Part shown: one piece after another, positions 1 to 57,625 of the stretch | Numbering within the stretch: the first letter of the stretch is position 1 | Layout: every line of letters starts with the position of its first letter | DNA from: an uncultured Bacteroidaceae bacterium | Lineage (GTDB): Bacteria; Bacteroidota; Bacteroidia; Bacteroidales; Bacteroidaceae | DNA: 64,000 nt | Assembly (NCBI GenBank): GCA_939800445.1 | Contig: CALNGU010000002.1 | Span: forward strand, 1 to 64,000 | Direction of reading: 5' to 3' | Made by a program: the position numbers and the translations under genes | The notes under the pieces: generated by a model | Database searches by the model: none | Told to the model about the DNA's origin: nothing | What the model saw: the letters and a program-made list of their open reading frames with translations, nothing else

Positions 1-129
1 TGTTTATATAAACAGAAGTTTTGAATATATAAACAAAACTTCTGAATATACTTTAAGCACCGAGACAAGCAACTTTTCTCGGCGAGTGGTGGAAGTTTAT
101 GTCTATCATCATCGGTTTTATCCCCTGCC
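1..129. repeat. Composite 21/22-bp dyad array, copy A (cut by window start)
   Basis: Homologous to the arrays at 33296-33508 and 46391-46548. Visible cores are CAGAAGTTTTG centred at 18, CAAAACTTCTG at 39, then degenerate GTCNGAC-type cores at 60 (GCACCGA), 82 (TCGGCGA), 104 (GTCTATC) and 126 (CCCTGCC). Spacing is 21, 21, 22, 22, 22 bp. The first two bases fit the end of another TTCTG core centred at -3, so the array continues upstream of the window. The spacers match copy C closely (for example the AACTTTTC stretch near 71-78) while the 7-bp cores have drifted. Function unknown. Confidence 0.75.
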
Positions 130-3743: not shown

Positions 3744-4430
3744 TCACTCGTCCCTGCTCGCCCCGAGGAACAGCATCACGTAGTAGAGCAACGTAGCCAA
3801 CGACCCGAGCGCGGCGACGACGTAGGTGTAGGCAGCCGACTTCAGCGCATCCACCGCCATGCCATGATTGGCGGGGCTGGTGATGCCCGTCGTCTCAAGC
3901 CAAAGCAGCGCACGGCGGCTGGCATTGATCTCGACCGGCAGGGTGATGAAGCTGAACAGCGTCGTCAGCGCGAACAGGCATATGCCGAAAAGCATCAGCT
4001 GCGGGAACACGTAGAGCAGCAACATCCCCGCCAGCAACACCCACGACATGATGCTCGACGCGAAACTCACGACAGGCACAATCGCCGAGCGGAAGCGCAA
4101 CGGGGCATAGGCCGTGGCGTGCTGCAACGCGTGCCCGCACTCATGGGCGGCGACGGCTGCGGCGGCGACACTCGTGCTGTGGTAGACGGCCTCGCTCAAG
4201 TTGACCGTCTTGTTGACAGGGTTGTAGTGGTCGGTCAGAGTGCCGGGCGTGCAAGTCACCGACACGTCCCAGATGCCGTTGTCCCTCAACATCTTCTCCG
4301 CCACCTCACGTCCCGTCATGCCACTGTCGAGAGGGACGCGAGAGTAGCGTTCAAACTTGCTTTTCAATCTACTCGACACCAGCCAGCTCAGCAGGGTGAT
4401 GCCGATGAACAGAATCCAATAGGTTGCCAT
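3744..4430 (-). CDS. Zinc metallopeptidase, YugP family (membrane)
   Basis: A 228-residue membrane protein with the zinc-protease motif HECGH at residues 96-100. An N-terminal helix (about residues 2-20) precedes the peptidase region and three further helices follow (about 114-150, 150-165, 205-222). E167 in LPVEINASRRAL is a plausible third zinc ligand. The family (neutral zinc metallopeptidase, DUF-like YugP) has no well-defined substrate. I chose the ATG at 4430 because the protein then begins MATYWILFIGITLL, the usual N-terminal helix; an upstream start would add 28 unlikely residues. Convergence with nusB does not occur: both are on the minus strand, separated by a hairpin. Confidence 0.9.
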   Translation of the reverse strand: MATYWILFIGITLLSWLVSSRLKSKFERYSRVPLDSGMTGREVAEKMLRDNGIWDVSVTCTPGTLTDHYNPVNKTVNLSEAVYHSTSVAAAAVAAHECGHALQHATAYAPLRFRSAIVPVVSFASSIMSWVLLAGMLLLYVFPQLMLFGICLFALTTLFSFITLPVEINASRRALLWLETTGITSPANHGMAVDALKSAAYTYVVAALGSLATLLYYVMLFLGASRDE

Positions 4431-4853
4431 ATACTTTTGTTTTTCGTTAATATCCACTCCGTCGCGCCGCATCACGGCACGATGCAGCCACGGCCGACAA
4501 TGCAATGATAGCAAAAGCCGTGCTAAAGCGGAAACCCGCCCCGCCCGGCAGGCATCCGCTTGACAATTTTTGCGAAATTATAAGTCTTGTTGTCACGCCA
4601 CCACGGCAACATGGCAGGCATGACACCAGACGTTCACGCCCATGACATCTGACGATGTCGCGGAAGTCATGCCTTGTTATAGCCACTAACAAACCTTGTT
4701 ATAGGCACTAACAAACCTTGTTATAGGCACTAACAAGGCTTGTTATAGCAACTAACAACGCACGACTTCGCAAAAATCATCCCACCACCGCCGCAAAGCC
4801 TTGGGATGTCGTTAGGAAATGCTATCTTGCAGCATCATCAAAACATCTGTCAT
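4431..4853. other. 423-bp divergent intergenic region
   Basis: Lies between the divergent zinc peptidase and SPFH genes. It contains the four-unit TTGTTA array (4672-4759) and a short dyad GACATC-tga-c-GATGTC near 4644-4659. Only a weak promoter candidate for the SPFH gene is visible: CTTG (4800-4803), 19 bp, TATCTTG (4823-4829). No convincing small gene is present. Confidence 0.7.
4672..4759. repeat. TTGTTA...TAACAA array, four 22-bp units
   Basis: Four head-to-tail 22-bp units start at 4672, 4694, 4716 and 4738. Each has TTGTTA and TAACAA half-sites flanking a central 6-8 bp, for example CTTGTTATAGGCACTAACAA. This copy uses TTGTTATAG rather than TTGTTAGT on the left, so its central symmetry is poorer than at the other three loci while the outer half-sites are kept. 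It is 95 bp upstream of the SPFH ATG. Confidence 0.9.
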
Positions 4854-5816
4854 ATGGAAAACAAAGAATTCGATTACTCGGGCGTTTACCTCAACGGTTT
4901 CCTCGGCCTGTTCGTCAACCTCGCCATGTTCCTCGGCGGGGCATTCTGTTTCTACTCCGCCAGCACGCAGGGCGGCAACACGGTCCTCGCGGTGACTGGC
5001 ATAGTGCTGGTGGTCGTGGGATTCTTCATGCTGTTCGGCTACATGATGCTTGAGCCGAATGAGGCAAAGGTGATGGTGTTCTTCGGCAAGTACAAGGGCA
5101 CGTTCCGCCACACGGGCTTCTACTGGGTCAACCCCTTCATGACGACCAAGGCACTCTCGCTCCGCGCCAGGAACCTCGATGCCGAGCCCATCAAGGTCAA
5201 CGACAAGGTGGGCAACCCCATCCTGATAGGCATGGTGCTGGTGTGGCGTCTCAAGGACACCTACAAAGCAATGTTTGAGATAGACGCGCAGACAATGGCA
5301 TCCGTTGCAGGAGCTGGCAGCGGCAACGTGGCGACGAGGATGCTCGCATTCGAGAAGTTCGTCCGCATCCAGAGCGACGCCGCGCTGCGGCAGGTCGCCG
5401 GGCAATACGCCTACGACAACATAGAGACCTCCGAGAAAACGGATGTCCCGGGCGACGAGCTCACCCTGCGCGACGGCGGCGAGGAGATCAACGACCAGCT
5501 GGAGCAGAAGCTGAACGAACGCCTCGCCATGGCCGGCATCGAGGTCAAGGAAGCCCGGCTCAACTACCTCACATACGCCCCCGAGATAGCTGCGGTGATG
5601 CTGCGCCGGCAACAGGCCAACGCGGTGATAGCGGCGCGCGAAAAGATCGTCGAGGGAGCTGTCAGCATGGTGCAGATGGCTATGTCGGAGATGGAGAGGA
5701 AGGACATCGTGCAGCTCAGCGACGCGCAAAAGGCCGCCCTCGTCAGCAACCTGCTCGTCGTGCTGTGCGCCGACGAGACCGCGCAACCTGTCGTCAACAC
5801 TGGCACGAGGGATTGA
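4854..5816 (+). CDS. SPFH / band 7 domain membrane protein
   Basis: A 320-residue stomatin/prohibitin-type membrane scaffold protein. Two hydrophobic helices lie at about residues 14-30 and 41-62, followed by the SPFH domain (about 63-250), with the usual EPNEAKVMVFFGKYKGT entry and ARLNYLTYAPEIAAVMLRRQQA near residue 240, then a coiled-coil-like tail. SPFH proteins form membrane microdomains and often partner a protease or channel; no NfeD-type protease is adjacent. The ATG at 4854 is chosen because the upstream in-frame ATG adds 16 residues that do not match the family. The following hydrolase gene starts 2 bp after the stop, so the two are co-translated. Confidence 0.9.
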   Translation: MENKEFDYSGVYLNGFLGLFVNLAMFLGGAFCFYSASTQGGNTVLAVTGIVLVVVGFFMLFGYMMLEPNEAKVMVFFGKYKGTFRHTGFYWVNPFMTTKALSLRARNLDAEPIKVNDKVGNPILIGMVLVWRLKDTYKAMFEIDAQTMASVAGAGSGNVATRMLAFEKFVRIQSDAALRQVAGQYAYDNIETSEKTDVPGDELTLRDGGEEINDQLEQKLNERLAMAGIEVKEARLNYLTYAPEIAAVMLRRQQANAVIAAREKIVEGAVSMVQMAMSEMERKDIVQLSDAQKAALVSNLLVVLCADETAQPVVNTGTRD

Positions 5817-16905: not shown

Positions 16906-18396
16906 ATGACAATTCCCGCAACATTAATAAGATTCTTGGCTCTCTGCCTTGCCCTGCTGCCCGCTGTGGCGGCACCGGCACTGGGGCAGGCCAAGCACCA
17001 GGTGCGTGCCGTGTGGCTCACGACCGCCTATGGCCTCGACTGGCCGGTGCAAGGGGCAGCCGACCAGAGGGAGAGCCTCAGGGCTATGCTTGACGTGCTG
17101 GCCGGCACGGGCATCAACACTGTCATGTTCCAGTGCCGCATCAGGGGTGACGTCGCCTACGACTCAGCCATAGAGCCGCGCAACCGCCTGTTCAAGGCGA
17201 TGGACTTCGACCCGCTGGCCTTTGCCATCGACGAATGCCACAAGCGGGGCATGGAGTGCCACGCATGGATGGTCTGCATCCCCCTCGGCAGGCAAGGCAA
17301 AGTGCCACGGCAGACGCTGGCGGCCATCGACAGGGCCGGGCGCGGACTGGTCATGAGCCACAAGCGGCAACTCTACCTCGACCCGGCGCGGCGCGGCACG
17401 GGCGAGTACCTGGCAAGCATCGCCACCGAACTGACCTCCCGCTACGACATCGACGGGCTGCACCTCGACTACATACGCTACCCCGACGACTACCGCGCAT
17501 TCCCCAAGGCCAAGGGGATGACCGCCGCACAGAAGGCTGCCGTGCGGCGCGACAACATCACCGGAGTGCTCAGGACAATCCACGCGGCAGTCAAATCGAT
17601 CAAGCCGTGGGTGAGCCTCAGCTGCGCCACGATAGGCAAGCTCCGCTCCACCGCCCGCCTCGACAGCCATGGATGGGATGCCCGCGACTGCCTCGGACAG
17701 GACGTGCAGGCGTGGCTGGACGAGGGACTGGTCGATGAGGTCTACCCCATGATGTACTTTAAAGACGACAACTTCTATCCATTCGCAGCCGACTGGAGCG
17801 AGGCGGCCGGCGACGCGTCGCGGGTCATCCCCGTGCTGGGGCTCTACCGCATCGAGTACGCCGACCAGGGCTGGGAGGCCGATGAGATAGTCAGGCAGGC
17901 ACACTTCTGCCGAGCACTGGGGTTGGGCGGCATAGGCCTCTACCGCGCCGAGACCATCGTGCGCAACACACGCAACATCCGCGGCCTGCTCACCAGCGAA
18001 ATCTTCACCACCACTGCGTTGCCACGCGGCGGACGGGGACGGATGGAGGGCTGCACCGTCGCCATCACCCGTGCCGAAACCAACGGGCGGCGCACCCAGC
18101 TGCAATGGGAGTACCAAGGGGCGGCTGGTGACGGAGTGACGTTCACCATCTACGCCAGCGACACCTGGCCGGTTGACACCGCCGACCCCGCCAACATCAT
18201 CGAGGCTGGCGTGCGGGCGACGGGCTACACCTACGACTACACCTACGACAGCGGGCGGCGCGCCCATTTCGCAGTGACCGCCACCGACCACCTCGGCAAC
18301 GAGAGTGCGCCAGCCATGACCCCTCAGCCGCCTGCCACGCGCATGGGCGTGCTATTGCCGTCGCAGGCTCTCGATGCCACGCCCGTGACTCGGTGA
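16906..18396 (+). CDS. Secreted glycoside hydrolase-like protein (GHL10 / DUF187)
   Basis: A 496-residue exported protein. A signal peptide (about residues 1-27, ending ALGQA) precedes a TIM-barrel GHL10 domain (about 30-345) with the family start VRAVWLTTAYGLDWP, NTVMFQCRIRGD, GLHLDYIRYP (probable catalytic region) and VYPMMYFKDDNFY. A fibronectin-III-like C-terminal domain (about 385-475) follows. The family (YngK-like) acts on polysaccharide or peptidoglycan-type glycans, but substrate is unknown. The start is set by the signal peptide; a longer frame upstream adds 29 residues of non-signal sequence. It is convergent with the TonB-receptor-like gene. Confidence 0.88.
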   Translation: MTIPATLIRFLALCLALLPAVAAPALGQAKHQVRAVWLTTAYGLDWPVQGAADQRESLRAMLDVLAGTGINTVMFQCRIRGDVAYDSAIEPRNRLFKAMDFDPLAFAIDECHKRGMECHAWMVCIPLGRQGKVPRQTLAAIDRAGRGLVMSHKRQLYLDPARRGTGEYLASIATELTSRYDIDGLHLDYIRYPDDYRAFPKAKGMTAAQKAAVRRDNITGVLRTIHAAVKSIKPWVSLSCATIGKLRSTARLDSHGWDARDCLGQDVQAWLDEGLVDEVYPMMYFKDDNFYPFAADWSEAAGDASRVIPVLGLYRIEYADQGWEADEIVRQAHFCRALGLGGIGLYRAETIVRNTRNIRGLLTSEIFTTTALPRGGRGRMEGCTVAITRAETNGRRTQLQWEYQGAAGDGVTFTIYASDTWPVDTADPANIIEAGVRATGYTYDYTYDSGRRAHFAVTATDHLGNESAPAMTPQPPATRMGVLLPSQALDATPVTR

Positions 18397-18413: not shown

Positions 18414-18457
18414 CCTTGTTAGTCGCACTAACAAGCGTTGTTAATCGCACTAACAAG
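18414..18457. repeat. TTGTTA...TAACAA array, two 22-bp units
   Basis: Units at 18414 (CCTTGTTAGTCGCACTAACAA) and 18436, 22 bp apart, starting 17 bp after the stop of the glycosidase gene. The first unit is a near-perfect dyad (CTTGTTAGT / ACTAACAAG around CGC). It could form a short hairpin but has no T-run. Confidence 0.9.
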
Positions 18458-18540
18458 GCACTTCAAAATCCTGAAGCACCGATCCTGCGCACCCACTCCC
18501 GCACCCCATCCACAATATCCCCTGACGTGCCTGCGGAAAT

Positions 18541-18615
18541 GGGTTACCCATTTTGCCCAAAAGGGTTACTCTCTTGACGGAAATGGGTTACCCACTTTGA
18601 CAAAGAGAGTAACCC
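18541..18615. repeat. GGGTTACCC array, four cores at exact 22-bp period
   Basis: Cores GGGTTACCC, GGGTTACTC, GGGTTACCC and GAGTAACCC are centred at 18545, 18567, 18589 and 18611, exactly 22 bp apart. The first and third sit in a longer dyad (AAATGGGTTACCCATTT). The second and fourth are inverted copies and can form a 13-bp stem. The array ends 24 bp from the 3' end of the TonB-receptor-like gene, in the convergent region with the glycosidase gene. Confidence 0.92.
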
Positions 18616-18639
18616 ATTCCCATAACCGCCTCGGATGGC

Positions 18640-21093
18640 TCACAGCCCTACCTTGAGCGACACGGCCAAGCCGCGCGGGATACACTCGGACATGGCGAAA
18701 CGCCCGTGCCCGACGCTGTAGTCGGGGTTGAAGCAATACTCCGTCAGCTCAGTCCCGAAGTCGTAGATGTTGTAGCACAGCACCTCGACCTCGACAGGCC
18801 TTTTCCTGATGCTGCCCTTGTAGCTGGCGCGGAGGTCGAAGTTGAAAAACATATCCTCGCGGCTGCCGAAGTCACCATCGAGGGGATTGATGCCCTTGGT
18901 GCGGCGGTTCCACACGGCCACTTGCGTGCTGCCGTCGGCATTGCGCTCGGTGACATAGTTGAAGCCCGAGAACGGCTGCCCGTCCTTGAACTTGCCGGTA
19001 AGCGCGAAGCTGAAGTGCTCGTCGATGTTCCACCCCAGATGGAGGCGGGCGATGTAGGCGCGGTCCTGGTCATAACGGCCTATGCCCTTGACCAACGCGT
19101 TGGGGTTGGCGGTCGTCTCGGTCAGGGCGGCGATGTCGTTGACGATGGGGCCGTTGCCCAGACCGGCGAAGCCCGCCATCAGGTAGGACTGCCACGAGAG
19201 CATGGCGAAGAATCGTGGGCCAACGTACTCGTACTTTATGACCGACGAGAAGTAGTAAGGGGTGTTTGATATGAAATCCGTCCACCCGTCCTTGTGCATA
19301 TAGCTCTTGGGCAGGTAGCCGACAACGTAGTCCACCGGCTTGCCGCCGTCAAACATGAAGACCTGCGTGCCGTCGTCGGCCGTGACATAATGCCCGTAGT
19401 CGCCAGCATCGCCGCCGAATGAGGTCATCCACGTGTTAAAGTATTTCCTGTATGAATTGAGGAAACTGATGGTGTGGCGGCCGAAACGGAAATGTATGGG
19501 TATGTCCAGCACGAAGTAGGCCGGCTGGTGGAGCAGCTCGACCTTGCTCCTCGATGCCCCGCCGGTTGAGAGGAAATAGCCGCCGCGCTCGCCGTCGTCG
19601 AGACGCTGGTTGCCATTGCCGTCCATCCAGTAGTGGACATCACCGTTCATGTAACGCTTGGAGAAGTAACGGATGTCGTCGTAATTGAAGGCGACGCGGT
19701 TCCTGCTCAGATTCACCTCCATCTCAAACCACTTGCACGGCGCAATCCTGAAGCCCGCCATGACCTGCCAGTTGGGGCGGAACATCGACCTGTCCTTGAC
19801 CAGCATCGCGTCAATCGTCACGTCGATGTTGGCCTTGAAGTCCAGCCACCGGGTAAGGCGGCGGTGGAAGCGCAGGCTCGCCGTGTTCTCCAACAAGCCG
19901 CTGGCAAACGCCTCGCTCGACCAGTCATAGACATACAGGGGAGTGAACGGCTCGCCCACCTGCCGCAGGTAGACGGCGTTGGAGAAACTGTTCTGCCTGG
20001 GTGCGAAGTGCATGACCGAGTTGTAGCCGTCAAACGTGAACGACAACCAGCTGTTTATCCTATGCTCAAGGTTCAAGGCATAGGACAGCTCAGAAGTCAC
20101 CCCGTCGGGCTGCCACGGTTCAAACCCTTCCCCGTCCTGGTCAATCAGGTTGCGGGAGAAGCCCAGGTCGTCATGCCGCACCGTGTTGAACGCCAACGTC
20201 AGACCCGACGTGTAACGGGTATGGCTGCGCCGCCTGGTGCCGTAGAGCGACAGGCTGTAGGTGTTCTGCTGCGCCGTCTCCTCCCGCCCGTAGTAGAACT
20301 CCGAGCCCATGTTGCTGCGCCCCGACACTCCTATTATATAATTCATCGTGTCGAAGAGGCGCACGGGCTTCACCGGGAGCTGCCCGTCAAGGCTCAGTTC
20401 GAAGAAGTCCTCGGGGTAGTAGTCATCTATGCCCGTCTCGTCGAAGTCCACCAGCTTCCTCACGCCATAGTCGAAGTAGAGGTGCTGCCTGTAGCCCGTC
20501 TCCCCCCGGCGCAAGGTGTAGTTGAGGTCTACGCTGCCCAGCCCCTGCATCTTGTTGCGGTGCTCCATGGGCTTGTATGCCCTCTCCTGCGCCGTGAGAT
20601 GCAGCAGGTTGATGAATTGCTTCGTGCCGCGCGATATTCCCCCGAGCCCTCCGAAGTTGTAGGTGGCAGTGATGGCATCAGGCACTGCCGCGTCCTTGGT
20701 CAGCCACAACTGCGACGTGTGATAGTCTATGTCAAGGCTGTGCGTGAGCATATCGGCATGATAGGTCGTACTGCCCGGCATGAACCGGCTGTCGATGCGG
20801 AATCCGTCAAGGTAGAAACGATTCCATCGGTAGGAATTGCCCGCCACCGAGAACGTGAGCCTGTCGGGCGCGGCAAAGCCCCCTGTCGTCTCGGTCTGGT
20901 AGGTGGTGTAGTCGTCAAGGTTGTCCAAGTAGTTGGTCAAATCACCTGACTTGTAGTATGTCCTGAACAATTGGCTGCTGCGGTGCTGCATCCCGTAGTC
21001 CGGCAACGTGTCCAACGGCTCTGCATCCACTGCGGCACTTGCTACAATGGACGATGACAGCAACGCCAAGGTCAATAGATGTGTCTTCATCAA
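18640..21093 (-). CDS. Outer-membrane TonB-dependent-receptor-like barrel protein
   Basis: An 817-residue outer-membrane protein. A signal peptide (about residues 1-20) is followed by a plug-like region (about 60-180, with RFYLDGFRIDS resembling the plug LDGVPI segment) and a long C-terminal region of alternating aromatic strands typical of a 22-strand barrel. No carboxypeptidase-like domain, clear TonB box or SusD partner is visible, so it is not a typical SusC. It starts 1 bp after the upstream barrel gene and is the last gene of a lipoprotein-barrel-receptor operon. Substrate is unknown. Confidence 0.75.
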   Translation of the reverse strand: MMKTHLLTLALLSSSIVASAAVDAEPLDTLPDYGMQHRSSQLFRTYYKSGDLTNYLDNLDDYTTYQTETTGGFAAPDRLTFSVAGNSYRWNRFYLDGFRIDSRFMPGSTTYHADMLTHSLDIDYHTSQLWLTKDAAVPDAITATYNFGGLGGISRGTKQFINLLHLTAQERAYKPMEHRNKMQGLGSVDLNYTLRRGETGYRQHLYFDYGVRKLVDFDETGIDDYYPEDFFELSLDGQLPVKPVRLFDTMNYIIGVSGRSNMGSEFYYGREETAQQNTYSLSLYGTRRRSHTRYTSGLTLAFNTVRHDDLGFSRNLIDQDGEGFEPWQPDGVTSELSYALNLEHRINSWLSFTFDGYNSVMHFAPRQNSFSNAVYLRQVGEPFTPLYVYDWSSEAFASGLLENTASLRFHRRLTRWLDFKANIDVTIDAMLVKDRSMFRPNWQVMAGFRIAPCKWFEMEVNLSRNRVAFNYDDIRYFSKRYMNGDVHYWMDGNGNQRLDDGERGGYFLSTGGASRSKVELLHQPAYFVLDIPIHFRFGRHTISFLNSYRKYFNTWMTSFGGDAGDYGHYVTADDGTQVFMFDGGKPVDYVVGYLPKSYMHKDGWTDFISNTPYYFSSVIKYEYVGPRFFAMLSWQSYLMAGFAGLGNGPIVNDIAALTETTANPNALVKGIGRYDQDRAYIARLHLGWNIDEHFSFALTGKFKDGQPFSGFNYVTERNADGSTQVAVWNRRTKGINPLDGDFGSREDMFFNFDLRASYKGSIRKRPVEVEVLCYNIYDFGTELTEYCFNPDYSVGHGRFAMSECIPRGLAVSLKVGL

Positions 21094-33295: not shown

Positions 33296-33508
33296 CATCA
33301 CGTCAGACATAAACTTCCACCACGTCAGACAAGAAGTTGCATGAGGTCAGACGCAAAGTAAAAACAAAAGTTCTGTTTATATATTCAGAAGTTTTGTTTT
33401 AATATTCAAAACTTCTGTTTTTACTTTACATCTGACCTCATGCAACTTTTCGTCCGACCACACGCAGGTTTATGGCAGACGTGGTGGAAATTGATGTCCG
33501 ACGTGATG
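33296..33508. repeat. Composite 21/22-bp dyad array, copy B (ten cores)
   Basis: Cores and centres: GTCAGAC 33305, 33327, 33349; CAAAAGTTCTG 33370; CAGAAGTTTTG 33391; CAAAACTTCTG 33412; ATCTGAC 33433; GTCCGAC 33455; GGCAGAC 33477; GTCCGAC 33499. GTC-type cores are 22 bp apart; steps involving the central AT-rich cores are 21 bp. The whole is a long imperfect inverted repeat (CATCACGTC at the left end, GACGTGATG at the right), the right arm having one more 22-bp unit. It ends 63 bp before the porin-like gene's promoter. Confidence 0.93.
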
Positions 33509-33571
33509 GGGAAACGGAGTGGTAGTTTTTGCCGAAAACAACGCAGGTGTGACAATTTTTAACGAAAGATA

Positions 33572-34548: not shown

Positions 34549-36561
34549 ATGTTAAACGCCATTGCAAAGAGCATCCGCAACCTCTTGTTGCCCATTGCGT
34601 TGCTCTCCGTCCCGGCGGGGCTGGAGGCGCAAATAAACACCGACAGGGTGATGGACATAGGGCGCAACGCCCTGTATTTCGAGGACTATGTGCTGTCCAT
34701 CCAGTACTTCAACCAGGTCATCAGCGTCAAGCCGTACCTCTGCGAGCCCTACTTCTTCAGGGGGCTTGCCAAGTTCAACCTCGGGGATTACCAGGGGGCG
34801 GAGGACGACTGCACGAGGACGATCGACTGCAACCCGTTTGTCGTCAACGCCTACCAGGTGAGGGGGCTGGCGAGGATAAACCTTGAGGACTATGCCGGGG
34901 CGATAGAGGACTACCGCACGGCGTTGCGCTATGACCCCGAGAACATCGGAGTGCTGCACAACGTCAGCCTGTGCTACTTGCAGGAGAAGCAATATGAGAT
35001 GGCCGACAGCACGCTGGACTACCTGCTCAAGGTGTCGCCCGGCTACACCGATGCCTATATGCTGAAAAGCGAAGTCAGCCTTGAGCGCGGCGACACGGCG
35101 GCAGCATTCACCTACGCCGACACGGCGGTCAGCCGCGACCCCTACGACGCACGCTACTGGTCGGCAAGGGCTACTATCAGGCTGATGCAGGAGGACTACA
35201 AGGATGCCGAGGGCGACCTCACGCAAGCCATACGGTTGGGCATCGACAACGCGCCCAACTTCATCAACCGCGCCTTGGCACGCTACAACCAAAAAGACCT
35301 GAGGGGGGCGATGGCGGACTACAACGAAGCGTTGGATTTAGACCCCGACAACTACATAGGGCTGTACAACCGTGGCCTGCTCCGCGCCCAGGTCGGCGAC
35401 GACAACCGCGCCATTGAGGACTTCGACAAGGTGCTTGAGATGAATCCACGCAACATGATGGCAATGTTCAACCGCGCATTGCTCCGCGAGAACACGGGAG
35501 ACTATGCCGGGGCGATAGACGACTACACGAGGGTGTTGCAACGCTACCCCGAATTCGCCTACGGATACCGTCGCCGCGCCGACCTGTACAAGAAGACGGG
35601 CAACCCCCGACTCGCCGCCAAGGACGAGGACAAGCTGCTCAACATGGCACTCGACGAGCAATTCGGCAAACAGACGAAAGCCGACGACACCCGCCAGACG
35701 CGCAGAGAGTCGGACGATGACGACGTGGACAACTATGAGAAGATGATCGTCGCCGACGACAACAACCTCACGGGCTACAACAACGACTACCGTGGACGCA
35801 TCCAGAACCGCAACGTCGAGGTGCGTATGCAACCGATGGTGGCGATGACCTACTACGAACAGCCGAGCGAAATCATCAACCACAGCCTCTACCACAAAGC
35901 CATCGACGCACTCAACAGCGGCCAGGGCGGCACGCCCAAACTGCTCATGACCACACGCGAGCGACCGCTGACAGAAAGTGAGGTCGAGCGGCACTTCACA
36001 CTCATCAACAGCCGCAAGCTGGATGAGGCTACAGGCCACGGATGCGCCGAGCAGCACTTCCGCCGCGCGTTGGACTTCTACCTGGTGCAAGACTTCGACA
36101 GCGCGGTAGGCGACCTCGACGATGCCGAAGCGTGCGACGGCAGCTTCTTCCCCACCTACTTCCTGCGCTCGCTCATCAATTGCAAGAAGATTGAAGTCGA
36201 GCGGTCGCAGCAGACTGCCGAAGCGGGCCTCTTCAAACCCGAGGGCGGCACGGGGCTCCCCTTCCACGACTACGACACAGTGCTGGCCGACCTTGACAAG
36301 GTTGTCGAACTCGCGCCCGACTTCCCCTACGCCTACTACAACCGCGCCTGCGTCAAGGCGATGCTCAGGGACTTCCTCGGCGCACTCGATGATCTCGGCA
36401 AAGCCATCGAACTCGACGGCAGCTTTGCCGAAGCCTACTACAACCGAGGCCTCGTCAACGTCTTCCTCGGCAACAACCGCCAAGGCATCGACGACCTGAG
36501 CCGCGCCGGCGAACTGGGGATTGCATCCGCCTACAATGTCATAAAGCGATTCCGCAAATGA
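34549..36561 (+). CDS. Exported tetratricopeptide repeat protein
   Basis: A 670-residue protein. Signal peptide about residues 1-26 (LLLPIALLSVPAGLEAQ). Residues 30-370 form about ten TPR units with typical consensus stretches such as AYQVRGLARINLEDYAGAIE, LYNRGLLRAQVGDDNRAIED and AMFNRALLRENTGDYAGAID. A charged linker (about 375-430, KADDTRQTRRESDDDDV) follows, then a unique region and four more TPRs (about 500-665), ending YYNRGLVNVFLGNNRQGIDD. It likely scaffolds protein complexes in the periplasm. The start coincides with the predicted transcription start. The gene is followed by a TTGTTA array. Confidence 0.9.
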   Translation: MLNAIAKSIRNLLLPIALLSVPAGLEAQINTDRVMDIGRNALYFEDYVLSIQYFNQVISVKPYLCEPYFFRGLAKFNLGDYQGAEDDCTRTIDCNPFVVNAYQVRGLARINLEDYAGAIEDYRTALRYDPENIGVLHNVSLCYLQEKQYEMADSTLDYLLKVSPGYTDAYMLKSEVSLERGDTAAAFTYADTAVSRDPYDARYWSARATIRLMQEDYKDAEGDLTQAIRLGIDNAPNFINRALARYNQKDLRGAMADYNEALDLDPDNYIGLYNRGLLRAQVGDDNRAIEDFDKVLEMNPRNMMAMFNRALLRENTGDYAGAIDDYTRVLQRYPEFAYGYRRRADLYKKTGNPRLAAKDEDKLLNMALDEQFGKQTKADDTRQTRRESDDDDVDNYEKMIVADDNNLTGYNNDYRGRIQNRNVEVRMQPMVAMTYYEQPSEIINHSLYHKAIDALNSGQGGTPKLLMTTRERPLTESEVERHFTLINSRKLDEATGHGCAEQHFRRALDFYLVQDFDSAVGDLDDAEACDGSFFPTYFLRSLINCKKIEVERSQQTAEAGLFKPEGGTGLPFHDYDTVLADLDKVVELAPDFPYAYYNRACVKAMLRDFLGALDDLGKAIELDGSFAEAYYNRGLVNVFLGNNRQGIDDLSRAGELGIASAYNVIKRFRK

Positions 36562-36645: not shown

Positions 36646-36711
36646 AGTTGTTAGTGCGACTAACAAGCATTGTTAATGGCACTAACAAGCCTTGTTAGTC
36701 GCACTAACAAA
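36646..36711. repeat. TTGTTA...TAACAA array, three 22-bp units
   Basis: Units start at 36646 (AGTTGTTAGTGCGACTAACA), 36668 and 36690, exactly 22 bp apart. The first and third are near-perfect dyads around GCG or CGC; the second has TTGTTAATGGCACTAACAA. It lies 84 bp after the TPR stop and ends 42 bp before the next ATG. Confidence 0.9.
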
Positions 36712-36753: not shown

Positions 36754-37068
36754 ATGAAACAAGACGACAAACACACCGTCACATGGAGGCAACAAGCCTC
36801 GGACATCGAGAGACAGATAAGCGAAATGACAGCCACACTGAGCCGCCTGCGCGCCGAGCGTTCACGCATCTACGCCGCACGCCTCGCCGAACTCAAGCGC
36901 GCCAGCGGCGTGGGAGCGGCGACACTGTGCAAGGAATGGCTCGACGCCCGCCTCTCCCAAGCAACCCTCGCCCACAAGATAGCCGGCAGGCAACCCGCCC
37001 TGCTGCACGATGTCGAGATGCTCGAGAACGCGCTGCAACGGCACGGCGTGGCATTGCCCGAGGACTGA
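36754..37068 (+). CDS. Small coiled-coil protein of unknown function
   Basis: A 104-residue basic cytosolic protein with no family I recognise. Residues 10-45 form a probable coiled coil (QASDIERQISEMTATLSRLR), followed by a helical region with ATLCKEWLDARLSQATLAHK. The second half could be a small DNA-binding helical fold, but this is speculation. Start chosen as ATG at 36754 immediately after the TTGTTA array; longer frames would read through the repeats. Codon use resembles its neighbours, so I think it is real, but support is moderate. Confidence 0.6.
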   Translation: MKQDDKHTVTWRQQASDIERQISEMTATLSRLRAERSRIYAARLAELKRASGVGAATLCKEWLDARLSQATLAHKIAGRQPALLHDVEMLENALQRHGVALPED

Positions 37069-46352: not shown

Positions 46353-46390
46353 TTTTAAGTTTCCTTATGACTGGCATAGCTGGCGGGAGA

Positions 46391-46548
46391 GGCGGACATA
46401 AACTTGCATGAGGTCAGACGTAAAGTAAAAACAAAACTTTTGAATATATAAACAAAACTTCTGAATATACTTTACGTCTGACCTCATGGAACTTTTCGTC
46501 TGACGTGGTGGAAGTTTTGGCCTGGCATCATGGGGTTTGTCACCTGAC
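46391..46548. repeat. Composite 21/22-bp dyad array, copy C (eight cores)
   Basis: Cores and centres: GGCGGAC 46394, GTCAGAC 46416, CAAAACTTTTG 46437, CAAAACTTCTG 46458, GTCTGAC 46479, GTCTGAC 46501, GCCTGGC 46523, ACCTGAC 46545. Steps are 22, 21, 21, 21, 22, 22, 22 bp. It has two central AT-rich cores, against three in copy B. The array fills the space between the glycosyltransferase stop and the lon promoter. Confidence 0.92.
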
Positions 46549-46579
46549 CTACCCGCACGGCCGGCTGCATCGCCCGGCA

Positions 46580-50208: not shown

Positions 50209-51336
50209 TCAAAAGTCGAGTTTGGCGAGCAAGCCGTCTATGCGGCGCACTGCCTCCTCAATCCTTTCCCGCCGTATGTCACCATTCTCCACCGCATCGA
50301 CGATGATGTCAACCACCTCGTCAGGACGCTCGGGAGAGTTGCCTGCCGGCGAATTGTTGCCGAGCACCAGCAAATCGACACCGGCATTGATGGCACGCAC
50401 CACCGCCTCACGCAGGGTGAAATGGCTCACGATGGCCTCCATGTACATATCATCAGAAGCCACCACGCCGTCATACCCGAGTTTGCCGCGCAACAAGCCT
50501 CCTATCACATTTGCGGATAGCGTTGCCGGATAGGTGGAATCAAGGTGGGAATTGTAGATGTGGGCTGTCATCACAACGTCAACAAGGCCGGCATCAATCA
50601 GATGCCTGAACGGCGCAAGCTCGGCCTCGCTCCATGTGTCACTCACATCGACCAGCCCGAGGTGTGAATCAGAGGCCGCACTGCCATGACCGGGGAAATG
50701 CTTTATGGCGGTGGCAACCCCTTCCCTCCTGTGGGCTTTGACAAACCACCCTGCATTGGCGGCTACGACGGCAGTGTCTGACGAGAAGCTCCTCCCCAAG
50801 CGTCCGATGATGGGACAAGCAGGATTGACATCGACATCAACGGATGGGGCAAAATTGAGGTTTATCCCTGCCTCGCGCAAAGTCCTCGCTATGCCGGCAG
50901 CAGCCTCGGTCGTGGCGGTGCTGTCATTGCGTGCGCCGAGCGACTTGGGCGTGACCGTCGGGGGAAAGCCATAGGTGGTCTTGAGCCTATCGACATTGCC
51001 TCCCTCCTCGTCTATGGCGACTATCAGCTTGCGCCCTGCGGTATTCTTCAACGCCTGGCAAAGAGTTTTCAACTGCGATGGCGACTTTATGTTGCGCGAG
51101 CCACGTGTGCCGTCGCCCGTCAGGTCGCGGTCAAACAGGATGACACCGCCCACCCCGAGGTCTTGCAAGTAGTGCCGCACGTCCTCACCCACGCTGTCGC
51201 CACGGAAACCGACAATGAGCATCCGCGCAGCCTGCTGTCTCAACGACGGCGGCATCGCACCCTGTGCCATGGAGGGTTGTATGCAAACGACGGCGGCATA
51301 CAATGCCAGGAGGAAAAACATCAGATGATTTTTCAT
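50209..51336 (-). CDS. Glycoside hydrolase family 3 protein (beta-N-acetylhexosaminidase-like)
   Basis: A 375-residue exported NagZ-like enzyme. A signal peptide (about residues 1-24, ending SMAQ) precedes one GH3 TIM barrel. LIVAIDEEGGNVDRL near residue 103 and the loop KHFPGHGSAASDSH (about 210) carry the NagZ-type catalytic His, and GVVASDDMYMEAI (about 295) holds the nucleophile Asp. It probably trims N-acetylglucosamine from peptidoglycan or glycans in the periplasm. Its ATG overlaps the aldo/keto reductase stop as ATGA. Confidence 0.92.
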   Translation of the reverse strand: MKNHLMFFLLALYAAVVCIQPSMAQGAMPPSLRQQAARMLIVGFRGDSVGEDVRHYLQDLGVGGVILFDRDLTGDGTRGSRNIKSPSQLKTLCQALKNTAGRKLIVAIDEEGGNVDRLKTTYGFPPTVTPKSLGARNDSTATTEAAAGIARTLREAGINLNFAPSVDVDVNPACPIIGRLGRSFSSDTAVVAANAGWFVKAHRREGVATAIKHFPGHGSAASDSHLGLVDVSDTWSEAELAPFRHLIDAGLVDVVMTAHIYNSHLDSTYPATLSANVIGGLLRGKLGYDGVVASDDMYMEAIVSHFTLREAVVRAINAGVDLLVLGNNSPAGNSPERPDEVVDIIVDAVENGDIRRERIEEAVRRIDGLLAKLDF

Positions 51337-52355
51337 ACGGCATCCGATGTTTTCAGCAGTTTCAACACACCCTCGATCCGGGCAATCTCTTCATCCGAAA
51401 AAGGTGCGGAGTACAGGCATTGCAGATTGTCGCCGAGCTGCTCCACCGAGCTCGCACCCATGATGACGGTGGTCACGTTGCGGTCGGCAAGAAGCCACGC
51501 CAACGCCATGTCGGCAAGGCTTTCACCACGGTCGAGGGCTATGCGGTTAAGTTCCGAGACCACGCTGATGACCTCGGGGACAAGCTGCTCTTTCTTCAAG
51601 AATCCCCCACGCGCCACCCTCGAATCGGCGGGGATGCCGTGCAGGTATTTGTCCGTCAGCAGCCCCTGCGCAAGGGGCGAGAACGCTGCAAAACCGACCC
51701 CGGCGGCAGCGGCATCGTCAATAATTCCGTCATCATCGACCGCCGTGGTCAGCATATTGTAACGCCCTTGGTAGACAAGGCAGTGGACATCACGCCTTGC
51801 AAGGTAGTCATAGGCGAACATGGCCTGGTGCTTCGGGTACTTGGACAAGCCGACATAGAGGGCTTTGCCGCTCCTCACGATGTCAACCAACGCCTGCAAC
51901 GTCTCCTCAATCGGTGTCTCGGGGTCATAGCGGTGGGAGTAGAAGACATCAACATAGTCCAGCCCCATCCTCTTCAAGCTCTGATCCAACCCTGCCATGA
52001 GATGCTTGCGCGAATTCCAAGTGCCATACGGGCCGCTCCACATATCGTGTCCGGCCTTGGTGCTGATGAACAGTTCGTCTCGGTGCGGCGCAAACGAATC
52101 TTTCATCAACCTCCCGAAATTTTCCTCGGCACTGCCGGGCACCGGCCCATAGTTGTCAGCAAGGTCGAAATGGACTATCCCGTGGTCGAAAGCGTAGTGC
52201 GCGACCGACTTCATGTTGTCATACCGGTCAACACTCCCGAAGTTGTGCCACAGCCCAAGGGACAACTCTGGCAACATCACGCCGCTGTCACCGCAACGGC
52301 GATACTTCATCCCGCTGTCATAACGGTCGGCAGCGGCGACATATACGTTTCCCAT
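51333..52355 (-). CDS. Aldo/keto reductase, YghZ-like (glyceraldehyde 3-phosphate reductase group)
   Basis: A 340-residue cytosolic NADPH-dependent oxidoreductase. Active-site residues of the family are visible: Asp and Tyr in HFDLADNYGP (about residue 60), Lys in LFISTKAGHD, and His in VFYSHRYDPETP. The start MKYRRCGDSGVMLPELSLGL is the conserved AKR N-terminus; the annotated ATG adds 15 residues before it, so the ATG 45 bp further in is an alternative. In E. coli the related enzyme reduces L-glyceraldehyde 3-phosphate or methylglyoxal. It is co-translated with the GH3 gene. Confidence 0.9.
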   Translation of the reverse strand: MGNVYVAAADRYDSGMKYRRCGDSGVMLPELSLGLWHNFGSVDRYDNMKSVAHYAFDHGIVHFDLADNYGPVPGSAEENFGRLMKDSFAPHRDELFISTKAGHDMWSGPYGTWNSRKHLMAGLDQSLKRMGLDYVDVFYSHRYDPETPIEETLQALVDIVRSGKALYVGLSKYPKHQAMFAYDYLARRDVHCLVYQGRYNMLTTAVDDDGIIDDAAAAGVGFAAFSPLAQGLLTDKYLHGIPADSRVARGGFLKKEQLVPEVISVVSELNRIALDRGESLADMALAWLLADRNVTTVIMGASSVEQLGDNLQCLYSAPFSDEEIARIEGVLKLLKTSDAV

Positions 52356-52475: not shown

Positions 52476-55400
52476 TCAACGCTTGCCCGTCTTGTCCGCA
52501 TCTTTCCGTTTGCGGATTGAGAAGTCAAAGAGGTCACGGATGTTGTCGAAGTCACGTTTGAACACCAATCCGAGCCCCTGCGTCGTGAGCGTCGTCTTGG
52601 TGTAGTAGCGGTCATTGGTGCGGTTGTAGGCCTTGAGACGGAATATGCCAAGACGGTCAAGCAGATACTCGACTTCAAAGTCACCGATGAAATTGGACTG
52701 CGAGAGGGCGTTGTCCCTATACCCGAAATTACCATTGATTAGCAAACGGTTGTTGAGCAACTGTCCAGACAACATCCCCTCGAATTCCACGTCCGTCCAG
52801 CCATCAGTGCCGGTGCTAAGATTGGTGCCGATGTTCCAGTTATTATTGTCGATGAGGTTGGAAAACATATTGTTGAGCTGACCCGAGATTGTTGACGAGA
52901 CCACCGAGCTGAGCGCACTCGAGCTCTGGTTGGTGTTGTCGGCATTGTAATCACTCACATAGAAACGGCCAATGCTCAAGAGATAGAGAATCTGCATATT
53001 CATCTGCTCGTCCGTGCTTATGGCATTGAGGACAGTGCGCTGGACTTCTTCGCCCTCGTTGGGGAAATCAAGCCCGAGCTTTATTTCCGGGTGCGTCAAC
53101 GCCCCGGTCAGATTCATGGTGCAATTGACCTTGACGTTTGACTGCCCTATCTGGTTGACGACATCATTCCCCAAATCGCTCAACGGCACCGAATTGACCG
53201 TGTAGGCGGCATTGATGCCAAGCTCGGCATTGAGCGGGTTGCCATTGAAAGAGATGGTACTGCCAGCATTGATGATGAAGTCCTTGCGGATGATTTCCTG
53301 TATGCTGAATTTATAGATGCCCTTGTCAATCGTGTAGTTGCCGTACATCTTGACATCTCCCTTGTTATAGAAGTCTATCCTGATGTTACCGCTGCCCGTC
53401 CCGCCAATGTAATCTCCTGCGGAACGATCCATAATCATCTTCAGGTATATGCCGGGCGTGGCTTCCACATTCAGGTTCAACCGCACGTCAGAACCGATGT
53501 CATGTTGCTGGGAAAGGAAGTCATCGGCCTCATCCGCCGAACTCTTGAGCAATTCACTGCGTCTGCGCCTTGTCTTGTCCACGAATGTGACAAATTGATT
53601 GCTGGTTGCCGACGAAGTACTGTTTATCAAATATGAGAATGTGCTGTTTGCCCCAGTCCTGACATCGGCATTCACGTTTGTGCTCCCCTTGCCACCATGG
53701 ATGCTGACCTCACCGCTGGCGAATATCTTACCGTAAAAAGGCAAATCGACACTCTCCGCCCTGTCCATGACGAGCATATTGTCAAGCATGGCATCGACAT
53801 CGTAACGCAAGTTCTTCAGATGGGTGTGCGGCAAGCGTATGGTGGCACGTGCCGTGTTGCCGACGGCATCACGCACGAGAATGTTATCCATAAATATAAG
53901 GTTGGGACGGAACTCCACCGAGTCGGTGACGTGCAGCGTAGTGTTCAGGAGGTCTATCTTGAACTTGAAATCCTCGGCCAGCGCACGTCCTGTCAGATTG
54001 ATGCCGCCTTTGAACGGGCCATGTATCCTTATCTCACCACTCGCCCGTCCACTAATGTCCGAAGCGATGGAAGCCATATACTTCCTCAAGAATCCCAAAT
54101 CGACGTGGGAAGTGTTTATAGCCAAGTCGATGCTGCCAGGCTTGATGGGATGAATTACACCATCGACCGTTGTCGTTGACAGGTCGCGGTCGGTCATGTC
54201 GGCATCTATGACGATGCCCTTGATGTCATTGTCCCAACCGCCCTTGATTTCCATATCTCCGAGACGGCTGCCGTTGAAGCTGAAGTTGTCAATATAAAGA
54301 TCAGCGTTCAAACGCAACGTGCTCAGCACCCCGTTGGCATAGACCTGTCCTGTCACACCACCCGAGAAATCAACCACACGGCGGATATTGACAAGCTCGA
54401 AGATGTAGCTCATGTCTATCTTGCTCAAGTCCACGAATATGGAGTCACCATTGTCATGGCTCACCACACCGTCCACGCTCAGGTATTGGTCCTTATGCTC
54501 TATCCTGAAGCGCGACACGTCAACCTTGCCCGAATCGACCACAATCTTCGACGGATGGATGTCCCAGAGGCTGTCCTTCAATATGAAATTGCCTTTGCCC
54601 AATCTCACTTCGGTGCGCAAATCATCCCCATGGCGCGACAAGAGGGTCTCGGCTGTGATGTTGCCGCTGTAAGTCTCCGCTTGGTTGTTCCCCCAGAAGA
54701 GGTCGGTCATTATCTTATTGCCAGCCAAGGATGAGTGCAAGGCGAGCGCATAGACATTGTCATTCTTCATCAGCAGGTTTGACCTGAAATCCACCGAGAC
54801 ACCGCCAAGGCCGGCAGTGCCGACGCTCAGCGATGAGGAGTCAAAAGATTTGCCGCCAAATGCCACCTGCGGGACGGCACAATCAAGACGGACCAGCCCC
54901 GTGGCATCATCGTAGCAGCCGTTGGCGACGATTTTGCCATCCCCAACCGAGACAGGCAAATCAAACAGCCTTGCGATGAAACCGCCGTCCTTCACCTCAA
55001 ACCCGAAGCGGAGGTTGTTGTGCCGCACCTCATGCCTCTGCTTCCGCCCGGCATCCTCATGCACCACGATTGGGAGATAATGCCCCGTCATCCTGACCAT
55101 GCTCGGGAAAAGTCCAGCGTATGAGTAGTCGCCACGGACATAAGCATCAAGGAAATCGGAATTGACATACAGCGACTTTCCTCCCCCTGCCACATTCTCC
55201 AAATCCACAGAGAACGAGGGGCAGGCGAAAGCCTCATCAGGCAAGACCAAGGCGAAATCATTCACATCGACACCCCCCGCCATGTCGTCGGGCGAAGTCC
55301 CACGCACCGCACCAGACAGATGGAAAGCCATCTTACCGCCCACATAACGTTTGTCGGCCGTGAAGCCCAGGGCATACAAATCGACCCCCGAGGCCGCCAC

Positions 55401-56969
55401 ATCGACCATCGCCCCATTGACACCGCCGGCCGCTGACACCTCGGCACGCGCCTCGACATCGGCATTGGAGTCATGCAGGGCGAGTTGCGCGGCATAGACA
55501 CCCTTCCCTGCCGTGCAAGCGATTTTGATGCCGTTGTAAGCATACCCGTCATAAACCAGGCTGCCAACGTCAACCGCGCCATCCAGGCTCAACGCAGCAG
55601 GACTGGCAAAAGGCACACGCATCCGCACATCGGTACCAAAGGCAAGCGACGACAGCCGGGATTGCGGCATGATGCTGTCCACCGCGATGCCGTCGGTCGA
55701 TAGTTTCGCAGACTTGACGGTGAGCGCACGCTTGTCCACACCGAGCGACGATGCCAGGGACAAGCCACCGACGGGCGACGACACGTCCAGCGCAAGGGCA
55801 AGGTCTGAATATTTGCCATAGACCTCCCCCGCCGCATCGACGAAGCCTGGCATCCGCAGCTTGGCATCAGACGGGCGCAACAGTTCAAGCAACGGGCGGC
55901 TGACATGGAAGTCCTCGAGCCGGGCATACAGCCCCGCCGTATCTGCCAACGCCACCAAGTCCAAGTTGAATTCGTCACCGATGTCCATCCGGCACCGCCG
56001 CAGCTCCACGCCGCCACCGTCGCCACGCAGCTCGACATCGACCGACAAGTCCCTGTCAAAGCGGGCAAACCGCTCGTCAAAATAGGCAAGGTCGCTCAAC
56101 CTGACCCGCGTGCCGCTGATGCTCATGCCGAATGACAAGTCACCGCGCCCCCGTGCCAACAACCTGCCATTGGCATCGGCGACCCAGACCGAATCGACCT
56201 TGAACCCGCTGCGCCCCACGTCGATGACGAAATCGTCGAGCAGCAGGCGGTCGTCATTGGCCCGCAGGCGGAAAGCCGTCCTGCGCAAGGCCAGCCCCGA
56301 GCGTTCCACGAATGCCAGACGCTTGACGCTGGCGTTGATTGAGTCGGCGGTGAGCGTCTTGAGGGAGATGTTGGCACTGATGTCGCCCAACGCCACGTGC
56401 GAAGCGTTGAACAGCCCTGGCGTGGAGTCTTCGGACAGCACGTCATAGGTGAAACGCCCCTGGCGCAACATCAGGTAGTTTATCCGCAAGTCAATCGGCG
56501 AATCCTGCCCGCCATCCTTCTTGGCAAAGCGGTCGATGATGTACTGTATGTTCAGCTCCCCCCCCACCGTGTCGCGCGACAGGGCGATGTCGAAGCCGAA
56601 CAGCTGGACGGAGTTGATGCGCACCTTGCCGTTGAACAGCGGCAGCAGGTCCATCGTCACCGACAAGCGGTTGACATCGGCCAGCACCCGCCCCTCGCGG
56701 TCGCGCACCGACACGTCGTTGAGGATGACACGGTCGATGGCCGAGATGTCGATGCCGGCTATGCTCACGGGCGAGCCTATCAGCCGCGACAGCTCCTCGG
56801 TCGCCACGTCGCCGATGCGGTGCTGCACGGCCGGAGTCCTGAGCAGGACATAGAACGACACGTAGATGACCACGCCGATCACCAGCAACGTCAGGATTAT
56901 GTTCCTTATCTTTTTGATACGCCTGTCTCCTCTTCGTTTCTTCTTCACCTTGCCACCGGCACGCCGCAC
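52476..56969 (-). CDS. TamB-like translocation/assembly or lipid-bridge protein
   Basis: A 1497-residue protein. A highly basic N-terminus (KKKRRGDRRIKKIRN) and a single membrane helix (about residues 25-46) anchor it in the inner membrane; the rest is a long beta-rich periplasmic chain, with the DUF490/TamB domain in the last ~400 residues (GNIRIDFYNKGDVKMYGNYTIDKG..., ending in QLLNNRLLINGNFGYRD). TamB-type proteins bridge inner and outer membranes and are now thought to carry phospholipids or help barrel assembly. No TamA-like gene is adjacent, as is usual in Bacteroidetes. A TTGTTA array lies 88 bp upstream. Confidence 0.9.
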   Translation of the reverse strand: MRRAGGKVKKKRRGDRRIKKIRNIILTLLVIGVVIYVSFYVLLRTPAVQHRIGDVATEELSRLIGSPVSIAGIDISAIDRVILNDVSVRDREGRVLADVNRLSVTMDLLPLFNGKVRINSVQLFGFDIALSRDTVGGELNIQYIIDRFAKKDGGQDSPIDLRINYLMLRQGRFTYDVLSEDSTPGLFNASHVALGDISANISLKTLTADSINASVKRLAFVERSGLALRRTAFRLRANDDRLLLDDFVIDVGRSGFKVDSVWVADANGRLLARGRGDLSFGMSISGTRVRLSDLAYFDERFARFDRDLSVDVELRGDGGGVELRRCRMDIGDEFNLDLVALADTAGLYARLEDFHVSRPLLELLRPSDAKLRMPGFVDAAGEVYGKYSDLALALDVSSPVGGLSLASSLGVDKRALTVKSAKLSTDGIAVDSIMPQSRLSSLAFGTDVRMRVPFASPAALSLDGAVDVGSLVYDGYAYNGIKIACTAGKGVYAAQLALHDSNADVEARAEVSAAGGVNGAMVDVAASGVDLYALGFTADKRYVGGKMAFHLSGAVRGTSPDDMAGGVDVNDFALVLPDEAFACPSFSVDLENVAGGGKSLYVNSDFLDAYVRGDYSYAGLFPSMVRMTGHYLPIVVHEDAGRKQRHEVRHNNLRFGFEVKDGGFIARLFDLPVSVGDGKIVANGCYDDATGLVRLDCAVPQVAFGGKSFDSSSLSVGTAGLGGVSVDFRSNLLMKNDNVYALALHSSLAGNKIMTDLFWGNNQAETYSGNITAETLLSRHGDDLRTEVRLGKGNFILKDSLWDIHPSKIVVDSGKVDVSRFRIEHKDQYLSVDGVVSHDNGDSIFVDLSKIDMSYIFELVNIRRVVDFSGGVTGQVYANGVLSTLRLNADLYIDNFSFNGSRLGDMEIKGGWDNDIKGIVIDADMTDRDLSTTTVDGVIHPIKPGSIDLAINTSHVDLGFLRKYMASIASDISGRASGEIRIHGPFKGGINLTGRALAEDFKFKIDLLNTTLHVTDSVEFRPNLIFMDNILVRDAVGNTARATIRLPHTHLKNLRYDVDAMLDNMLVMDRAESVDLPFYGKIFASGEVSIHGGKGSTNVNADVRTGANSTFSYLINSTSSATSNQFVTFVDKTRRRRSELLKSSADEADDFLSQQHDIGSDVRLNLNVEATPGIYLKMIMDRSAGDYIGGTGSGNIRIDFYNKGDVKMYGNYTIDKGIYKFSIQEIIRKDFIINAGSTISFNGNPLNAELGINAAYTVNSVPLSDLGNDVVNQIGQSNVKVNCTMNLTGALTHPEIKLGLDFPNEGEEVQRTVLNAISTDEQMNMQILYLLSIGRFYVSDYNADNTNQSSSALSSVVSSTISGQLNNMFSNLIDNNNWNIGTNLSTGTDGWTDVEFEGMLSGQLLNNRLLINGNFGYRDNALSQSNFIGDFEVEYLLDRLGIFRLKAYNRTNDRYYTKTTLTTQGLGLVFKRDFDNIRDLFDFSIRKRKDADKTGKR

Positions 56970-57056: not shown

Positions 57057-57122
57057 CTTTGTTAGTCCGACTAACAATGCTTGTTAGTGCCATTAACAAC
57101 GCTTGTTAGTGCGACTAACAAG
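57057..57122. repeat. TTGTTA...TAACAA array, three 22-bp units
   Basis: Units start at 57057 (CTTTGTTAGTCCGACTAACA), 57079 and 57101, exactly 22 bp apart; the third, CTTGTTAGTGCGACTAACAA, is a near-perfect dyad. The array is 36 bp downstream of the deaminase stop and 88 bp upstream of the TamB-like ATG (both genes on the minus strand). Confidence 0.9.
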
Positions 57123-57157: not shown

Positions 57158-57625
57158 TCAATACTTTATTTTGTCCGTTTTCTCACCCCAAGCGCGGAAA
57201 GCCGCCATGGCTTCGTCGCCGAGAATACGCTCGGACGCGAGCCGCCTTGCCTCGTGCGGCAATGCCATCTCGTCGTAGATGAACGAGTCGTCGAAACCCG
57301 CCTCCTTGGCATCGGCCTTGGTGCATCCGTAGTAAACCTTGTCGATGTGCGCCCAGTAGATTGCCCCGAGGCACATCGGGCACGGTTCGCATGATGTGTA
57401 AAGCTCGCAGCCCGACAGGTCGAATGTCCCGAGCGTGGCTGCCGCCTGCCTGATGGCGTTGACCTCTGCGTGCGCCGTGGGGTCGTTGGCGAGGGTGACG
57501 CGGTTGCTGCCACGGGACACTATGCGCCCGTCCTTGACCACGACCGCGCCGAATGGCCCGCCCCCGGCGGCGACGCTCTCAACGGCGAGGGCGATGGCCT
57601 CGCGCATGAAATCTTGCTTGTCCAT
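57158..57625 (-). CDS. Nucleoside/guanine deaminase (cytidine deaminase fold)
   Basis: A 155-residue zinc deaminase. The zinc and catalytic motif HAE is at residues 52-54 and PCPMC at 81-85 supplies the two cysteines. The N-terminal GGGPFGAVVVKDGRIVSRGSN and the C-terminal MALPHEARRL tail resemble guanine deaminase (GuaD) rather than tRNA adenosine deaminase TadA, which usually has a different C-terminus. The gene starts 14 bp after the fructose bisphosphatase gene and ends a five-gene run. Confidence 0.88.
   Translation of the reverse strand: MDKQDFMREAIALAVESVAAGGGPFGAVVVKDGRIVSRGSNRVTLANDPTAHAEVNAIRQAAATLGTFDLSGCELYTSCEPCPMCLGAIYWAHIDKVYYGCTKADAKEAGFDDSFIYDEMALPHEARRLASERILGDEAMAAFRAWGEKTDKIKY

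Follow-up and report, generated by a model that had tools for sequence, protein, structure and literature searches.

Intergenic arrays of 22-bp palindromic units hold their positions and differ in spelling between two sister species of Bacteroidaceae

The window analysed here, a stretch of 64,000 nucleotides from an uncultured Bacteroidaceae bacterium, carries four members of a dispersed set of arrays built from palindromic units in exact 22-bp phase. The arrays lie between genes, preferentially in the zone just behind them, retain their positions in two species of one genus, and change half-sites and spacers in step in each species. They also run without a break into a second type of array, spelled CATNNNATG. 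We suggest, with a probability of about 0.45 and on the basis of sequence comparison, that the arrays are rows of dyad sites, working at the DNA level, for a putative sequence-specific protein, and that they have been turned over in concert.

A preliminary description of the window had reported arrays of 4, 2, 3 and 3 units with TTGTTA and TAACAA half-sites. An exact-pattern search recovers all four (12 units altogether), with the first coordinates right to within 2 bp (Table 1). The unit is TTGTTA-N7-TAACAA (19 bp) followed by a 3-bp linker. The 22-bp phase and the half-sites stand as described. The gap between the half-site hexamers is 7 throughout, so that a search with gaps of 8-12 returns no matches. 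The genome-wide motif search that had been proposed finds 152 exact units in this assembly (G000; 2.22 Mb in 136 contigs, 89% complete) and none for the reversed pattern, which rules out chance. For further analysis, a set of 46 arrays was taken, the four in the window plus 42 stretches around further G000 arrays; it contains 132 units and does not take in every two-unit or single G000 site. Forty of the arrays have three units, one has four, three have two and two are single.

The majority of units are spelled TTGTTAGT-NNN-ACTAACAA or depart from this in one arm, and an array is a row of 8-bp half-sites (mostly TTGTTAGT) in alternating inversion with 3-bp spacers, with a dyad each 11 bp. Palindromy exists at two levels, the unit itself consisting of two 8-bp half-sites with 3 bp between them. 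The preliminary description, overall partly supported, had missed this feature along with the degenerate units around the arrays, the CATNNNATG continuity, the species-wide respelling and the many further arrays. G and C dominate the central 3 bp, with CGC/GCG in 71 and GCC/GGC in 43 of 129 G000 units. Unique spacers are absent, as first noted, and the linkers are drawn from six triplets when strands are collapsed. In the 40 three-unit G000 arrays the outer units are exact mirrors in 19, against 6.2 expected, and the two linkers are complementary in none, against 4.6 expected. In three-unit arrays of the sister species, G004, the two linkers fall in the same class in 2/33, against 11.2 expected, and AGA is typically paired with AGG. 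In a consensus of 90 flank sides, ATGAC[AT]T... stands out as a mirrored motif that keeps the 22-bp register of the arrays, and shared homology is lost by about 34 bp. Further units of 22 bp, degenerate but still in register, surround the arrays: the dyad score is 5.10 at the array border, 2.75 one unit outward and 2.19 two units outward, over a background of 1.92. Within arrays, flank pairs are without clear covariation (z of 0.3, 2.0 and 1.2 in the conserved part).

Table 1. Arrays and related features in the window
Feature	Position	Strand	Setting or remark
Array 1: 4 TTGTTA-N7-TAACAA units	4674..4758	.	divergent genes 3744-4472 (-) and 4854-5816 (+)
Array 1 left flank GGAAGTCATGCC	4662..4673	.	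degenerate ATGACT...AGTCAT-type half-site, same 22-bp register
Array 1 right flank CGCACGACTTCGC	4759..4771	.	mirrors left flank
Array 2: 2 units	18416..18456	.	convergent genes 16966-18396 (+) and 18640-21030 (-)
Palindromic array spelled GGGTTACCCA, 22-bp phase	18537..18618	.	geometry score 1.45; shares array 2's intergenic gap
Array 3: 3 units	36648..36710	.	tandem genes 34549-36561 (+) and 36754-37068 (+)
Three CATNNNATG dyads, 22-bp spacing, superfamily type D	51297..51349	.	geometry score 1.17
Array 4: 3 units	57059..57121	.	tandem genes 52476-56969 (-) and 57158-57625 (-)

Genes were called with a purpose-made codon-based caller, which reproduces the four gene settings first described for the window (divergent, convergent and two tandem). 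The earlier argument that the arrays are not one promoter's operator holds well beyond the window, as the 46 arrays stand beside different genes and none lies within a gene. Their settings are 27 tandem, 10 convergent and 6 divergent, with 3 at contig ends; for comparison, gaps of more than 100 bp in the window, arrays disregarded, are 12 tandem, 6 divergent and 1 convergent, and array-free gaps of that size in the stretches are 16, 6 and 0. In tandem settings the array is closer to the 3' end of the upstream gene in 24/27 cases (medians 51 vs 150 bp), a bias that promoter avoidance would equally produce. The eight genes that flank the window arrays are unrelated to one another. Pfam families comprise a zinc peptidase, a Band_7 protein, a GHL10 protein, a TPR protein, TamB and a deaminase, and two of the eight are without a family. 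The CATNNNATG dyads at 51297-51371 straddle the point where the called genes 50209-51336 and 51333-52355 meet; the explanation is either a misplaced start codon or an array that extends into coding sequence. Another long palindromic repeat occurs at window positions 1-120, 33300-33520 and 46380-46560, with an AT-rich 21-bp centre, AAACAAAACTTCTGAATATAT, and arms of about 22-bp units, CTTTTCGTCTGACNTCATGGAA. It has dozens of copies in G004, many of them identical over 55 bp of the centre. The single Rfam match in the window, DUF805b RNA (RF02914; 33619-33654, + strand, 40.3 bits), is unrelated to the arrays, and a tRNA search of the window found none.

Among the 399 genomes of the family sample, two contain the exact two-unit pattern: G000, with 90 occurrences, and G004, with 14. 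Both belong to one five-genome genus, in which adjacent pairs number 90, 14, 0, 0 and 0. Pairs respelled as TTGTAA-N7-TTACAA number 47 in G004 and 0 in G000, and when one mismatch and a free letter 5 are allowed the counts become 97 in G000, 84 in G004 and 2 in G057, a member of another genus. A scan of GTDB species genomes, a collection that may omit G000 itself, returned 33 stretches for a generic 2.5-unit pattern, 32 of them in G004's genome and one a one-strand match in a Dehalococcoidia. Letter 5 is T/T in all 129 G000 units, while the 119 G004 units divide into 77 A/A, 28 T/T, 13 mixed and 1 other.

This respelling takes place at fixed loci. We matched 22 orthologous array loci between the two species, with neighbouring DNA mostly 78-92% identical; on the G004 side 17 are of TTGTAA type and 5 of TTGTTA type, each class including one array with a mixed unit. 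Spacers differ as well as half-sites, and unit number ranges from 1 to 5 among arrays. Array 1 of the window corresponds in G004 to three TTGTAA-N7-TTACAA units, again between divergent genes, and the array is absent from this locus in G001. Array 2 corresponds to a single unit, TTGTAACTCGCACTTACAA, array 3 to three TTGTTA units with other linkers and another middle core, and array 4 to three TTGTAA units. One of the five TTGTTA loci lies in a 4 kb array-bearing segment (L032, L063) that is 98.9% identical between the species and was probably transferred recently. Of the 24 remaining G000 stretches, 21 could be placed in G004 and were judged by eye: nine carry TTGTWA-type units, some decayed, five another 22-bp array, of CATTGTATG type (D-type), three no evident array, and four are resolved on one side only. 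A 22-bp-phased array is thus present at 36 of 39 resolvable G004 places. Letters were compared one by one in 16 pairs of equal unit number, the transferred pair excluded. Half-site agreement is full at letters 1-4, 99% at letter 6 and 25% at letter 5, the values for letters 1-4 and 6 being inflated as that pattern was used to find the arrays; outside the half-sites, agreement is 26% in linkers and 43-50% in flanks. Orthologous cores are no closer to each other than random partners (0.616 vs 0.610; 1235/3000 shuffles).

The TTGTTA arrays belong to a larger superfamily, and half-sites unrelated to theirs take up the same geometry in other genera of the family. Sets of three CATNNNATG dyads (dyad CAT-NNN-ATG) at 22-bp spacing number 114 in G000, 120 in G004, 56 in G001 and 0 in both G002 and G003, with reversed-control counts of 2, 0, 0, 0 and 0. 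In some arrays the phase is unbroken from this type into the TTGTTA/TTGTAA type, for example at G000:C6:28322 and G004:C3:140626. A four-dyad CAWNNNWTG pattern matched 4 of 61 genomes (75, 69, 20 and 3). Its reversed control scored 29 in G011, from another genus, because that genome has arrays of its own, TACTTAGG-NNN-CCTAAGTA-NNN, at 10 loci. One of these is a run of 17 near-identical tandem dyads (G011:C1:1443818-1444178). G057 carries arrays of TTGTAATG-NNN-CATTACAA, and in both G011 and G057 a second spelling adjoins the first; in L156 (G011:C1 near 128472) it is AAACAC-CTG-TGTTTG that adjoins the TACTTAGG type.

A detector that scores geometry alone gave 6 real against 0 shuffled peaks at period 22 in the window. 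Applied to an unselected sample, 290,706 bp of stretches from 8 other genomes that were not chosen for arrays, it gave real against shuffled counts of 6/0 at period 22, 17/4 at 18, 4/1 at 20 and 3/0 at 24. The excess at 18 and 20 probably reflects codon structure, and for the other genomes more weight therefore falls on explicit arrays and on the period count of Tandem Repeats Finder over the same DNA, in which 22 is the commonest period (8 of 23 arrays; other periods at most 3 each). Period-22 repeats in G009 and G013 are weak or spelled differently. In six other genomes 22 arrays were checked, and all fall between called genes; 7 of the 22 come from stretches picked for earlier matches (L173, L174, L175). 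Fifty kb of E. coli K-12 held nothing at period 22, and viral contigs gave 0 matches to three array patterns. Together these results are suggestive, though not proof, of the 22-bp geometry as a family-wide habit.

If the arrays are protein-binding sites, one dimer may occupy each 22-bp interval, which spans about two helical turns, and binding may be cooperative, the half-sites being read by a sequence-specific DNA-binding protein. Drift in the specificity of this putative binder could have driven the respelling, and a bound array might form an intergenic boundary, whether of DNA architecture or as a barrier to supercoils or transcription. We favour such a binder because the half-sites are exact with their arms in step, because the switch occurs at fixed loci and because arrays also lie between divergent genes. 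The lack of T-runs, the unclear wobble bias and the absence by letter matching of a pairing signal in G004 point the same way. The concerted change of spacers and flanks is not easily explained by it, however, and is better fitted by the spread of a selfish repeat; the covariation of outer cores in G000 is what a hairpin would predict.

An RNA hairpin at transcript 3' ends, serving processing, stability or termination, would agree with the 3' bias in tandem settings, though avoidance of promoters leads to the same expectation. All 8 pieces folded form strong hairpins (z -3.7 to -10.5), as any palindrome would. Outer cores covary in G000 (0/5000 shuffles), but the signal weakens once duplicates are removed (8/5000, and 386/5000 for the N3 letters alone), and no argument is built on it. 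In G004 this covariation is absent by letter matching (2736/5000), although exactly complementary outer cores number 7 against 2.1 expected. Base-pair covariation is inconsistent, and pairing is not the common rule: sense-strand G.U against A.C stands at 13 to 8, an unclear bias, and linkers are never complementary in either species (0/39 and 0/33). Divergent genes flank 6 of the 43 arrays whose neighbours are both known. A T-run follows 2/92 array ends, the background level (37/2210), and intrinsic terminators are rejected; the plain terminators that the preliminary description had named as its refuting case are disfavoured on the same two counts. We consider an RNA element of this kind improbable.

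A selfish, REPIN-like population, in which palindromes are copied or converted by a transposase or recombinase and the respelling reflects a new variant spreading, is less easily dismissed, and we regard it as possible, if on the unlikely side. Copy number is sharply unequal among the five congeners, genes are avoided by 46 of 46 arrays, half-sites, spacers and flanks all change together, orthologous cores keep no locus-specific memory, and G000 has two frequent array haplotypes. Co-evolution of REPINs with RAYTs is also on record (PMC3116915). Such copying sits poorly, however, with array positions mostly common to both species, with 39 of 40 three-unit arrays being distinct, and with mixed G004 arrays that resemble stepwise change. 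Y1 transposase (PF01797) has 0 matches in G000, at 89% completeness, where a control search matched 5/14 named genomes. No clean insertion boundary was seen; 3 of 17 further resolvable G004 sites are array-free to the eye, their flanks too diverged to display one. Function-free minisatellites or MITE relics of the BrickBuilt kind would account for tandem units of variable number and for the 17-dyad array of G011, and BrickBuilt is likewise intergenic with 23-nt units (PMC4596501). Neutral decay would nevertheless not hold half-sites exact amid flank divergence, a point tempered by the arrays having been found through their half-site pattern, nor would it give 17 of 22 orthologous arrays one common difference. 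A leader and tail are absent, flank homology simply fading out, and we think this origin very unlikely.

The arrays might also be part of a chromosomal system shared across the Bacteroidaceae, which we put forward as a rather doubtful extension. Its constant part would be a geometry in which 8-bp half-sites alternate in orientation each 11 bp, in arrays between genes; its letters, private to a lineage or array type, would be respelled together at fixed loci, probably through co-evolution with a family of fast-changing DNA-binding proteins. If this reading of the arrays holds, bacterial dispersed sites can stay put while their sequence changes in step, one geometry carrying several spellings, and an intergenic boundary or chromosome-organising factor new to a major gut family would be indicated. 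A literature search, covering mainly titles and the starts of abstracts, with subscription journals mostly outside its scope, did not find such arrays described.

Among known systems the arrays resemble RAYT-driven REPs, BrickBuilt MITEs, iterons and CRISPR, yet part from each. With REP, BIME and REPIN elements (PMC3116915, PMC3733652), they share short dispersed palindromes outside genes, alternating orientation and a species-specific class, and 152 units in G000, with 46 arrays in the set, are many short intergenic palindromes. Unlike REPs and REPINs, they stand in strict 22/11-bp phase without intervening DNA, and their positions are kept while their letters turn over; a RAYT-driven REP is rejected, given the lack of PF01797 in G000 and of a GTAG/CGTC end tag in the flank consensus (90 sides). 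Porphyromonas gingivalis, the host of BrickBuilt, also belongs to the Bacteroidales. Its BrickBuilt MITE (PMC4596501) is intergenic with a short tandem unit (23 nt) and stable locations, but consists of direct repeats in an element with leader, tail and inverted ends, and the same source mentions earlier 22-nt tandem repeats in strain W83. The units here are palindromic, their flanks keep dyad symmetry in 22-bp phase over about 34 bp, and no terminal repeats, leader or tail were found. Iteron arrays of replication initiators are likewise tandem protein-binding units of about 22 bp; those described here occupy tens of dispersed loci, and iterons are rejected, as Pfam finds no replication initiator among the eight neighbours of the window arrays, six of which have a family, and no replication gene is recognised beside them. 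CRISPR is rejected on linkers that are 3 bp long and from a small set, not unique spacers of tens of bp. The DNA uptake sequences of Neisseriaceae are single short motifs in far higher number, where the present arrays are multi-unit and palindromic; their dialects are nevertheless, as here, a genome-wide motif whose spelling varies among related species.
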